Below, piece by piece: positions 15,954 through 25,866 of a stretch of DNA of 28,301 nucleotides. The notes below the pieces were generated by a model, which was given only the letters and a program-made list of their open reading frames with translations, had not been told where the DNA came from and searched no databases. Both the position numbers and the translations under genes were made by a program. Source of the DNA: a virus; IMG/VR virus record IMGVR_UViG_3300032294_000268, positions 1 through 28,301 of that record; one strand, written 5' to 3'. How positions within the stretch are numbered: position 1 is the stretch's first letter; the number at the start of each line of letters is the position of its first letter.

Positions 15954-17795
15954 GTGCCAGCGAATGTTCGTGTAAGCGGAACTTTTAGAAACGTATCCAA
16001 GATTAGTTGTCGTGTCGGCGGGTCTTGGAAAGATGTCACAAATGGATACATTCGAGAGAGTGGGGCTTGGAAACAATTCTTTGCCTCAACAATTCCACTA
16101 ACTGTAGATTACCTGGTAATCGCAGGTGGCGGTGGAGGTGGTAAACAGCACGGCGGCGGCGGCGGTGCTGGTGGTTACAGAACCTCGGCTGGCACATCTG
16201 GTGGTGGCGCTGGCGCTGCATCGAGCCTAAGCCTTGCAGTATCTACAAACTACACAGTCACAATAGGCGCTGGAGGAATCGGAACTCCTGGCGGCCCTAA
16301 TGGCGTTGGCGCTGCTGGAGGTCTTGGGGGCAATTCTGTTTTCGCTACCATTACTTCAACTGGTGGCGGTGGTGGTGCGACTTGGGTATCAAGCTCACCT
16401 ACTTCTGGTGGTTCTGGAGGCGGTGGTAATGGTGCGGCGGTTGGCCCTCCATCAAGCGTAGGAGCTTCTGGAACTGCTAATCAAGGTTTCGCTGGCGGTA
16501 ATGGTGGGGGCGATTTCAATGGAGGCGGTGGTGGCGGTGCTGGAGCAGTTGGTGGAACTGGCACAAGTAGCACAATTGGAAACTCTGGCGGTGCTGGTGT
16601 TGCTTCTACTATTACCGGCACTTCTGTAACCCGAGCCGGTGGCGGCGGCGGTGGCATCTATCAAGGCACAACCGTAGGTGCTGGAGGTTCTGGAGGTGGT
16701 GGAAATGGTGGAAATGCTGACGCGGCTGGTGTGCAAACACAAGCCCCAACAAGCGGAACAGCTAACACAGGCGGAGGCGGTGGTGGGCATGGAGCTTTTG
16801 CAACCCCAGGCGCTAATGGAGGTTCGGGTGTAGTAATTCTTCGATACCCAAACAGTTATGTAATCACCAATGGATCGGGGCTAACCTTCTCAACTACCAC
16901 AAGTGGTAGCAATAACATCACGACTTTTACTGCTGGAACTGGAAACATCCAGTTTGCGACTGCCATAACAGTTGATTTCTTGGTTATTGCTGGTGGCGGC
17001 GGTGGTGCTAATAATGCACCAGCGGGTGGTGGTGCTGGTGGGTATAGAACTAGCGCTGGAACTAGCGGTGGTGGCGCAAGTGCAGAAAGTGCAGTTGGAC
17101 TGGCAATGTCTACTAACTACACCGTTACTGTCGGTGCTGGCGGTGCATGCGGGCCAGCAGGAAATGGTTTTCAACTTGATCGCGGTAGCAATGGGTCAAA
17201 TTCAGTTTTTGCAACTATAACCTCTCTGGGAGGTGGTGGTGCAGCGCCAGGTGGAAACCTAATTCCAAATACTAAGCATGTTGGTCTTGCTGGTGGTTCA
17301 GGCGGTGGCTCAAGTGCATGGCCACCAGATGGAACTACATTTGTAGCAGGTGGAGCAGGAACAAGCAATCAAGGATTCAAGGGTGGTGACGCCACAAGCA
17401 GCGGAAGCACATTGGTTCAAGCGGGTGGGGGAGGTGCTGGCGGTGCGGCTGCTAACGTATCGGGATCAGGAGGAGTTCATGTTTCTGGTAGTGGTGGTGC
17501 TGGAGTAAGTTCTAGCATTGATGGCAGTTCAGTCACTAGAGCTTCCGGAGGCAGCGCTTGGACTGCTGCGCCTGTAACTGGGGGTGGCGGTGGTAGTGGT
17601 CAGCCAAATGGTGTTGCAAATACTGGCGGTGGCGGTGGCGATACTGGCAATGGCGGTTCGGGTGTAGTGATTCTTAGATACCCATCAAGCTTGACAATAA
17701 CAGTTGGCGCAGGACTGACAGCAAGCACTTCGACTGTAGGCGCAAATAGAGTAACAACATTTACAGCCGGCACAGGAAACATTAGCTTTAGCTAG
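15954..17795 (+). CDS. Glycine-rich tail fibre/adhesin with two tandem modules
   Basis: 613 residues from a GTG with AGGGG upstream. The N-terminus has two GxW-type units (GGSWKDV and SGAWKQFF, residues 22-43), a pattern found in tail fibre attachment regions. Two modules follow (about 51-339 and 340-613). Each opens with VDYLVIAGGGGGG or VDFLVIAGGGGG, contains long Gly-rich stretches and closes with GSGVVILRYP and a Phe-Thr-Ala-Gly-Thr-Gly-Asn-Ile strand. Gly-rich layers of this kind form the receptor-binding fold of some tail-tip adhesins such as gp38 of T-even-like phages; similarity here is by composition only. It probably binds the host surface. Confidence 0.8.
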   Translation: MPANVRVSGTFRNVSKISCRVGGSWKDVTNGYIRESGAWKQFFASTIPLTVDYLVIAGGGGGGKQHGGGGGAGGYRTSAGTSGGGAGAASSLSLAVSTNYTVTIGAGGIGTPGGPNGVGAAGGLGGNSVFATITSTGGGGGATWVSSSPTSGGSGGGGNGAAVGPPSSVGASGTANQGFAGGNGGGDFNGGGGGGAGAVGGTGTSSTIGNSGGAGVASTITGTSVTRAGGGGGGIYQGTTVGAGGSGGGGNGGNADAAGVQTQAPTSGTANTGGGGGGHGAFATPGANGGSGVVILRYPNSYVITNGSGLTFSTTTSGSNNITTFTAGTGNIQFATAITVDFLVIAGGGGGANNAPAGGGAGGYRTSAGTSGGGASAESAVGLAMSTNYTVTVGAGGACGPAGNGFQLDRGSNGSNSVFATITSLGGGGAAPGGNLIPNTKHVGLAGGSGGGSSAWPPDGTTFVAGGAGTSNQGFKGGDATSSGSTLVQAGGGGAGGAAANVSGSGGVHVSGSGGAGVSSSIDGSSVTRASGGSAWTAAPVTGGGGGSGQPNGVANTGGGGGDTGNGGSGVVILRYPSSLTITVGAGLTASTSTVGANRVTTFTAGTGNISFS

Positions 17796-17818
17796 AATTG
17801 ACTAGACGTTAGGAAACC

Positions 17819-18427
17819 ATGAGCGGATACAGAACTTGGACACCATTAGAAGTAATCACGGCTTCTAATGTCCAAAGCTACCTACAAGATCAGACTGTTA
17901 TGGTCTTTCCTTCAAGCGCAGTTAGGTCAACTGCCATTGTTGTTCCTACTGAAGGCATGTTGTCGTGGCTTGAGGATGCTAATAAGTATCAGTATTATTC
18001 TGGGTCAGCCTGGGAAGATTTGATTATTCCGATTGTTGGAGGCACAGCAGGTCAGGCTTATGTTTCTGGCGGGACTGCTTCAGCTACATTTGGGGATGTC
18101 AAAGCCGAGTTCATTCAAACAACCCTTCAGGCAAAGTCGGCAAACTACACAGTTGCAGTTGGCGACACGAACACCGTTCTAAATGTCACTTCGGCAAGCA
18201 CGGTAACAGTCCCCGATGTCTTGACCACTATCGGTGATCGCGTTGACATCATGAGAAACACCGCAGGAACTGTATTCATTACCGCAGGAACTGGCGTGAC
18301 TTCTTGGGCAGGTGCTGGAACAGCCGGTGTAGGCGTGACCTTTTACATTGATACTCCATACGCAGCCGCAAGCGTTATCAAGACAGCTTCTCAGGAATAC
18401 CGCATCGTGGGTCGAATTTCCGCATGA
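17819..18427 (+). CDS. Tail fibre/tip protein, second copy of the head module
   Basis: 202 residues, with AGGA before the ATG. Residues 1-68 resemble the N-terminus of the gene at 15285 (MSG start, LxEV, QSYLQDQTVMV, EGMLSWLED, GSAWEDL), which indicates duplication. The C-terminal part (NYTVAVGDTNTVLNV, VTVPDVLTTIGDRVDIMRN) looks like a beta-helix or fibre tip domain that is common in phage fibres and differs from the first copy. Its stop overlaps the start of the next glycine-rich gene (ATGA), repeating the head-then-adhesin order of the first cassette. Confidence 0.75.
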   Translation: MSGYRTWTPLEVITASNVQSYLQDQTVMVFPSSAVRSTAIVVPTEGMLSWLEDANKYQYYSGSAWEDLIIPIVGGTAGQAYVSGGTASATFGDVKAEFIQTTLQAKSANYTVAVGDTNTVLNVTSASTVTVPDVLTTIGDRVDIMRNTAGTVFITAGTGVTSWAGAGTAGVGVTFYIDTPYAAASVIKTASQEYRIVGRISA

Positions 18428-19338
18428 TTCCCATCTACATAATGACAGGTAGCGAGCCATACAAGCTTGACTATCTAGTTGTAGCTGGTGGTGGTGGAGG
18501 CGGCTACAGCACGACAGGAGGTAACTCGGCTGTAGATGGCGGAGGCGGAGGGGGCGGAGGCTATCTCGCTGGAGTCCCTGGAGAGGGTTCTGGCGGTGGT
18601 AGTTCAGCGCTAGAGCAGATAGTTTTCTATGGTGGCACAACCGTAACAGTTACTGTTGGCGCTGGTGGTGCTGTAAACACAAATGGTTCAAATTCAGTTT
18701 TCGGCTCACTAACTGCTATTGGCGGGGGACGCGGAGGCAGATCAAATACAATCAATAACAATGGCGGCGATGGCGGTTGCGGTGGTGGCGGTGGAGCTAA
18801 TACTCTCAATGGACTAGGAACTGCCAATCAGGGTTTCGATGGAGAAGATGGGGCTGGCAATGGCGGAAACTATCCAGCTACGTTTAGAGCTGCTGGTGGC
18901 GGTGGTTCTAGCGCGATTGGTAGCGTTTCAACCGGTGGAAGTGGTCAAGCTTCCATCATTACCGGAACTTCGGTAGCGCGAGCTGGTGGTGGTGGTGGTG
19001 CTGTTGGATCAACCGCTGCCGCAGGTGCTGGTGGTGCTGGAGGAGGCGGACGAGGCGCAAGAAGTGACTGGACAGAGCCTTCACTAGGTAGAAATGCGGA
19101 TGCAGGAACTGCCAATACTGGCGGCGGCGGTGGTGGCGGATGTTATTACAATGTGTCAGGCGTTGGTTTCTACAACTTTACTGGAGGCAATGGTGGCTCT
19201 GGCGTTGTTATTCTTAGATACCCCTCCCGCGCGAGAATCATTGACCGCATCGGCGCAGGTTTGACTTATACCTACAGCGATGACGGCGTGTGGAAGCGAT
19301 ACATTTTCACAGCCGGCACAGGTAACATTACTTTCTAA
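18424..19338 (+). CDS. Glycine-rich tail fibre/adhesin with one module
   Basis: 304 residues whose ATG overlaps the preceding stop (ATGA). After a 14-residue lead, a single module runs from LDYLVVAGGGGGG to a closing GSGVVILRYP and a final FTAGTGNITF. It is the third copy of the module found twice in the gene at 15954, with different loop sequences between the Gly-rich stretches. Variation in these loops while the framework stays constant is what one expects of a receptor-binding surface. It lacks the GxW attachment units, so it may rely on its co-translated partner at 17819 for mounting. Confidence 0.78.
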   Translation: MIPIYIMTGSEPYKLDYLVVAGGGGGGYSTTGGNSAVDGGGGGGGGYLAGVPGEGSGGGSSALEQIVFYGGTTVTVTVGAGGAVNTNGSNSVFGSLTAIGGGRGGRSNTINNNGGDGGCGGGGGANTLNGLGTANQGFDGEDGAGNGGNYPATFRAAGGGGSSAIGSVSTGGSGQASIITGTSVARAGGGGGAVGSTAAAGAGGAGGGGRGARSDWTEPSLGRNADAGTANTGGGGGGGCYYNVSGVGFYNFTGGNGGSGVVILRYPSRARIIDRIGAGLTYTYSDDGVWKRYIFTAGTGNITF

Positions 19339-25062: not shown

Positions 25063-25866
25063 ATGCCACTTATTAGAGGGCATCACTCATTTGATGACCA
25101 GTTCGTGCAAATCCCAAACGCCTGGATGCGTGATAGCAGACTAAGCCTAAAAGCGCGCGGTCTAATGGCGCAGATTATGACTCACCGCGAGGATTGGTCA
25201 TTGTCAATCAATCGGCTCGCACTTGACAATGGTGAAGGAAAACACGCAATACGCCAAGCCATTTCTGAGCTTGAAAAGTATGGCTATCTTGTGCGTGATC
25301 AGGTAAACGATAAGCGCTTTGCCGAGGCCATTTGGACTACGCACGACCCCTTCGATTTGCCGTTATCGGAAAAGCCGTTGTCGGAAATTCCGTTGTCGGA
25401 TAATCAAACCACTAAGAATAACACTCTATTAGAAGAACAACTAATAGAAGAACACTCTAAGAACACTAAGGCTAAAGAGCTTTTTGAGGAATTTTGGGCT
25501 GAATACCCTCGCAAGGTAGATCGTGCCAAAGCACTAAGAGCGTTCAAGTCGGCACTCACCCGAGCAACGTTTGAGCAAGTCCTGGCTGGCGCTATCGCCT
25601 ACAAGAACGACACATCTCGCAAGGCAGAGTTCACGAAGTATCCAGCCACCTGGCTAAATGCCGATAGCTGGGAAAATGAAATCGCACCTTCACCGGACTC
25701 CGAAGCCGCCGAACGCGCAAGAATCCGCCGAGAGAAGGAACGTGCTGCCACAGAGCAATTTCTAGCCGAACAGAGGCAAGCCATGGCAAGTTCAACGCTC
25801 AAATTGTGCAAGCATGATCTAACGATTGCTAGATGCCTACCCTGCGCAAAGGAAATAAATGGCTAG
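25063..25866 (+). CDS. Phage replication initiator with N-terminal winged helix
   Basis: 267 residues from the ATG at 25063; a TTG at 24994 would add 23 residues but lies inside a hairpin, so I reject it. The N-terminal 100 residues (VQIPNAWMRDSRLSLKARGL, then SINRLALDNGEGKHAIRQAI) form a winged-helix DNA-binding domain like those of phage replisome organisers. A linker with three LSE/LSD repeats follows (PLSEKPLSEIPLSDNQ). The C-terminal part (FEEFWAEYPRKVDRAKALRA, then YPATWLNADSWENE) is common in replication initiators and probably recruits the host helicase or its loader. Cysteines near the end (KLCKHD, CLPCAK) may bind zinc. The gene appears to contain the origin. Confidence 0.85.
   Translation: MPLIRGHHSFDDQFVQIPNAWMRDSRLSLKARGLMAQIMTHREDWSLSINRLALDNGEGKHAIRQAISELEKYGYLVRDQVNDKRFAEAIWTTHDPFDLPLSEKPLSEIPLSDNQTTKNNTLLEEQLIEEHSKNTKAKELFEEFWAEYPRKVDRAKALRAFKSALTRATFEQVLAGAIAYKNDTSRKAEFTKYPATWLNADSWENEIAPSPDSEAAERARIRREKERAATEQFLAEQRQAMASSTLKLCKHDLTIARCLPCAKEING
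25360..25470 (+). other. Candidate replication origin inside the initiator gene
   Basis: Three tandem 15-bp iterons start at 25360, 25375 and 25390: CCGTTATCGGAAAAG, CCGTTGTCGGAAATT and CCGTTGTCGGATAAT. Each contains an imperfect dyad CCG-N4-CGG. The next 70 bases (25401-25470) are only about 30% GC, against about 50% around them. Iterons followed by an AT-rich unwinding region within the initiator gene, encoding the linker between its two domains, is the layout of the lambda origin within gene O. Confidence 0.7.

Follow-up and report, generated by a model that had tools for sequence, protein, structure and literature searches.

The segment at 25360-25479, which lies within the initiator gene of this phage, is very probably its replication origin. 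The window, that is the whole 28.3-kb stretch of DNA that was analysed, encodes a replication initiator of the HTH_36 type (Table 1), and the linker-coding part of this gene holds three head-to-tail 15-bp units, each with a CCG-N4-CGG dyad. The initial annotation had placed three such repeats here, and indeed they lie at these positions (25360-25404), beginning about 300 bp 3' of the start codon, with a period of exactly 15 bp; in this phage the array consists of three units only. Our reading builds on this array, on selection acting on its DNA, on its constant position behind the DNA-binding domain, on an A+T-rich flank and on homology to a studied initiator. Most likely, the winged-helix N-terminal domain would bind the three dyad iterons, whose CCG/CGG half-sites alternate in inverted orientation, and the resulting nucleoprotein complex would strain and open the adjoining A+T-rich DNA, whereupon the C-terminal domain would bring the replicative helicase or primosome, so that this phage would use the segment as its origin. 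The linker peptide PLSEKPLSEIPLSDN would then be largely a side effect of the DNA site.

Table 1. Coordinates of the initiator gene and of the proposed origin within it (positions in the window).
Feature	Position	Strand	Basis or detail
Replication initiator gene, 267 aa	25063..25866	+	HTH_36 N-terminal domain, disordered linker, helical C-terminal domain
Winged-helix DNA-binding domain, coding region	25099..25338	+	Pfam match, AlphaFold2 model
Recognition helix, residues 60-72 of the model	25240-25278	+	AlphaFold2 model
Iteron 1, CCGTTATCGGAAAAG	25360..25374	+	dyad 25360-25369
Iteron 2, CCGTTGTCGGAAATT	25375..25389	+	dyad 25375-25384
Iteron 3, CCGTTGTCGGATAAT	25390..25404	+	dyad 25390-25399
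A+T-rich stretch, likely unwinding element	25405..25479	+	33% GC; ACACTAA-type motifs at 25410-25464
Imperfect second 15-bp repeat, CTA[TA]TAGAAGAACA (CTATTAGAAGAACA / CTAATAGAAGAACA)	25426, 25441 (25426-25454)	+	repeat search
C-terminal domain (FEEFWAEYPRK...)	25480..25863	+	phrog_9327 match; helices 120-243 in the model

The protein matches PF13730 (HTH_36) in Pfam at 1e-5, with 25.7 bits against a cut-off of 25, and its best PHROG match is phrog_270, 'replication initiation protein' (2.4e-34), while its C-terminal domain matches phrog_9327, a primosomal-protein PHROG, over residues 113-213 (8.5e-16). An AlphaFold2 model has a mean pLDDT of 84, with linker residues 107-119 below 50 and hence predicted to be disordered. 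The nearest solved folds of the winged-helix domain are RctB domain 1 (Z 9.2) and Geobacillus DnaB (Z 8.8), followed by the N-terminal domains of RepA (Z 6.7-7.6) and by DnaD (Z 6.5); the scores are middling, and all four are replication proteins. A phmmer search returned no credible relative in the PDB, and blastn against a collection of annotated phages no DNA-level relative of the locus. Neighbouring genes encode a RecE-like exonuclease, an SSB-like protein (a weak match), a RusA resolvase and two WhiB-family proteins (PF02467; 20761-21322, minus strand), the last of which suggest that the host is an actinobacterium.

Within the window CCGN4CGG occurs seven times, with 4.06 expected by chance, and four of these are single copies outside 25360-25404, so that the initiator array is the sole cluster; a pattern search revealed no second copy of the array elsewhere in the 28.3-kb record. 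The codons of the array are CCG TTA TCG, CCG TTG TCG and CCG TTG TCG. When synonymous codons were shuffled within the gene, the observed number of 15-bp-paired dyads arose in 304 of 200,000 shuffles, and three CCGN4CGG at the array codons in 35 of 200,000. For an unbiased test, relatives were chosen by their N-terminal peptide alone, together with seven loci found before (159 non-redundant in all). Their linkers contain 205 dyads paired at exactly 15 bp, against 21.3 ± 4.6 after shuffling, and within-gene synonymous shuffles of the linkers yielded at most 35 in 400 shuffles; outside the linkers, the N-terminal and C-terminal coding DNA of the same relatives hold 8 and 7. The signal is specific for a spacer of 4 combined with a period of 15, from which, given the alternating orientation of the half-sites, a further signal at spacer 5 follows. 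Repeat units defined by peptide alone were counted in the clade of the window: CCG encodes the Pro of the repeat in 130 of 134 (41.3 expected), and the third codon is NCG in 125 of 133 (35.2 expected), even as the third residue varies between S, T, A and P. In the nearest relatives the dyad is kept with the peptide altered from PLSE to PTTE. When viral contigs were searched with the DNA pattern by itself, 83 of 120 matches fell in initiator ORFs, while 0 of 120 did so for a control pattern matched in composition; the GC content of the matched loci ranges from 21% to 72%. Selection therefore acts on the DNA of the array rather than only on the peptide, as had been proposed from the near-constant CCG and TCG codons: the shuffles and the peptide-defined codon counts agree on it. 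The comparison of relatives had been suggested as a check, with a peptide repeat kept in divergent codons as the result that would refute the proposed origin; the opposite was found, the 15-bp spacing and the dyad being kept while amino acids, or even the reading frame, change, and also where the array lies past the stop codon.

Relatives in which the array is read differently, or not at all, serve as natural experiments, and they point to a DNA site that imposes the repeat on the protein. Six relatives with at least three CCGN4CGG dyads read them in the +1 frame (L628, which is the Exiguobacterium plasmid pA, L037, L031, L103, L486 and L076), giving unrelated linker peptides, of the SEIGD, DHGET or SASGF type. 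The initiator gene of some Streptococcus phages ends after the DNA-binding domain and the array lies in non-coding DNA beyond it, the layout being a short gene, then intergenic CTAAAGTTAGAAAAT units at 15 bp, then A+T-rich DNA. Javan119 (L626, 939-1719) has a separate DnaD-domain gene 3' of its intergenic array and A+T-rich DNA, and there the array might be spanned by a very short ORF. The array is likewise beyond the stop codon in L579 and L600, and no ORF with a start codon was seen over that of L600; in phiNJ2 and Javan83 related arrays with a spacing of 15-16 bp follow the stop codon. These cases bear on the idea that the repeat is a feature of the protein, a flexible, Pro-rich linker that grew by slippage and whose codons are alike as recent duplicates. 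Low-complexity linkers rich in Pro, Glu and Asn are common, and this one is predicted to be disordered. However, CCG...CGG is retained where codon 2 and the spacer have diverged freely, residue 3 may be S, T, A or P yet is almost always encoded by NCG, and synonymous shuffling destroys the signal. That this DNA can encode PTTEN, SEIGD or SASGF, or lie beyond a stop codon, already contradicts such an origin of the repeat, to which we would give next to no credence.

The 75 nt 3' of the array have a GC content of 33.3%, against 50.8% in the remaining ORF. The description of this stretch as about 70 bases of roughly 30% GC was a fair one, since it is the lowest window of the initiator gene and every other 75-nt window has at least 42.7%. 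The imperfect second repeat starts inside it, 21 bp past the end of iteron 3. Among 104 arrays of relatives, the 75 nt 3' of the array are poorer in GC than the remaining gene in 103 (mean 32% vs 48%), and in 79 of 104 they are the lowest-GC 75 nt of the gene. Synonymous choice in these flanks is shifted to A+T (summed GC 32.76 vs 40.11 ± 0.29), and A[CT]ACTAA motifs are commoner than expected (69 vs 25.0 ± 3.9). Motifs of the AATACTAA/AACACTAA type are enriched in the A+T-rich flank whether it is coding or non-coding (25405-25479 in the window, L579, L556).

Of the proven systems, the closest relative is ORF13 of phage TP901-1 rather than lambda O. With the N-terminal domain of the window initiator alone as query, tblastn matched TP901-1 rep (E 6e-7), the two sharing a homologous HTH_36-type domain. 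According to a later paper (PMC8965321, summarising Ostergaard 2001 and McGrath 1999), TP901-1 ORF13 and Rep2009 of Tuc2009 each bind a region rich in repeats within the gene that encodes them, and these regions serve as origins. The TP901-1 linker carries CCAGATGTGG units at 15 bp, with direct repeats CCAGATTCCGATTTT, CCAGATGTGGCTTTT and CCAGATGTGGGAAAT followed by A+T-rich DNA, as in the window, but its half-site is CCA/TGG whereas that of the window is CCG/CGG. The C-terminal parts differ: TP901-1 has a DnaB_2 domain (DnaD-like, PF07261), and the window protein has the primosomal-PHROG domain instead. Since PF07261 is absent, the window shares the DNA-binding and origin module of TP901-1, not the whole protein. 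The DNA-binding and DnaD domains are fused in TP901-1, with the array in the linker, and reside on two genes in Javan119. Together, the homologous TP901-1 initiator and the selection at the DNA level support the proposal that the initiator gene contains the replication origin.

Two other roles for the array have to be weighed against this origin. Perhaps it is an autoregulatory operator at which the initiator, or another HTH protein, represses its own transcription or blocks readthrough, with replication starting elsewhere. Iteron-binding initiators often autoregulate, and the array does lie inside a transcribed gene. Its distance from the start codon, about 300 bp, is far for a normal operator, and an operator would not need the GC-poor segment that follows the array in 103 of 104 cases with codons pushed to A+T. 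Since, moreover, the summary cited above (PMC8965321) reports the repeats within the TP901-1 and Tuc2009 genes to be origins, we consider an operator unlikely. Alternatively, a recombination, packaging (pac) or partition (parS-like) site could have come to lie in the initiator gene by chance, as direct-repeat arrays serve such sites too and RecE-like and RusA genes are nearby. Chance placement is difficult to reconcile with an array that, across many hosts, follows the DNA-binding domain of one initiator family in phages as well as in plasmids, that stays by this domain in split genes, and whose TP901-1 counterpart is, in the same summary, a replication origin (PMC8965321); it strikes us as highly improbable.

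An origin inside the initiator gene is by no means peculiar to this family. The window array had been called lambda-like, which holds for the architecture and not for the protein family: Pfam gave no match to Phage_rep_O, the lambda O family, at E 0.1, and phrog_678, 'O-like', was matched only at 0.0097. The lambda origin lies in gene O, where initiator-binding repeats and an A+T-rich region are found inside the initiator gene, and the window shares with it the dyad iterons within such a gene and the A+T-rich region thereafter. The lambda iterons are spaced and of about 18-19 bp, whereas those of the window are three contiguous 15-bp units. In SPP1, oriL in gene 38 likewise combines initiator-binding repeats and an A+T-rich region inside the initiator gene (PMC6316719). 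The Rep boxes of plasmid pSK41 are likewise part of its rep gene, where they encode a linker that is dispensable as protein (PMC5703833). The likeness to such RepA_N initiators lies in the sites in the linker-coding centre and may extend to the winged-helix fold of the N-terminal domain. The window protein belongs to a different sequence family; Pfam detected no RepA_N domain (PF06970) in it, and its winged-helix domain compares with 4pql, 4pt7 and 5kbj at Z 7.6, 7.3 and 6.7, in the middling range. In hybrids of the pPR9/pUSA03 type the N-terminal domain has been swapped together with the origin segment, and a mini-replicon of pPR9 is able to replicate (PMC5703833). These hybrids join an HTH_36 N-terminal domain to a C-terminal domain of the pSK41 type (Bac_RepA_C), from which the C-terminal domain of the window differs. 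The S. aureus plasmid pV030-8 (L627, 100-1125) encodes a hybrid of similar layout, a weak HTH_36-type N-terminus with a Bac_RepA_C C-terminus, and a clean CCGN4CGG array was not found in it. A plasmid of Streptomyces sp. NBC_00015 (L629) encodes, in a CDS from 956, an initiator-like protein in which the HTH domain occurs twice in tandem. For mycobacteriophage RepA no repeats were found, and the origin was suggested to lie immediately upstream of or inside repA (Wetzel 2020; PMC7157519).

A plot of GC skew, also proposed as a check, gave no origin signal. The record is a linear one by its classification, possibly a fragment, so that the lack of a signal speaks neither for nor against the origin. 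Between 15 and 19 kb a large skew coincides with Gly-rich tail-type genes (15954-19338) and would mislead origin calls based on skew.

Beyond the window's own clade the half-sites vary, being CCA/CCT, CTA, CTG or CAG, and some clades have an imperfect dyad (CAA-N4-TAG) or no array that was recognised. Scans with two predicted alternative half-site patterns placed 36 of 54 matches in initiator ORFs. We discarded the notion of universal perfect dyad symmetry, as only 37 of 108 initiator units pair perfectly in these two non-CCG scans; covariation between the arms outside CCG is real, though partial (0.33 vs 0.16; 0 of 1000 shuffles). A syntax of head-to-tail 15-bp units, each with a 3-4-3 dyad and a 5-bp A-rich spacer, followed by A+T-rich DNA with AATACTAA motifs, is well supported. 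The start of the recognition helix may be related to the half-site: residue 60 is K or R with CCG in 67 of 79 cases and V, I or E with CCA/CCT in 17 of 19. A code in which K/R60 would specify CCG, V/I/E60 CCA/CCT and T61 CT/CA is only suggestive. K60 ranks fourth by mutual information, the top three columns lying outside the recognition helix, and the tree holds one supported independent pair; with so few supported changes the code is only a lead. The wider proposition, that a single HTH_36 origin syntax extends over several bacterial phyla, in phages and in plasmids, in any frame or in non-coding DNA, with the half-site set by the start of the recognition helix, is one that we put forward tentatively, at somewhat less than even odds.

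What is new here is the evidence for one array syntax that accompanies an initiator family independently of the coding frame; in the part of the literature covered, we found no paper with an account of a family-wide array. Most phages have no known replication origin. Should the array mark the origin in all members of the family, start sites and specificity groups would become predictable for many phages and plasmids whose initiators are now annotated merely as 'helix-turn-helix domain protein' or 'RepA-like', and if the helix code were true as well, both the position of an origin and its specificity could be read from sequence.
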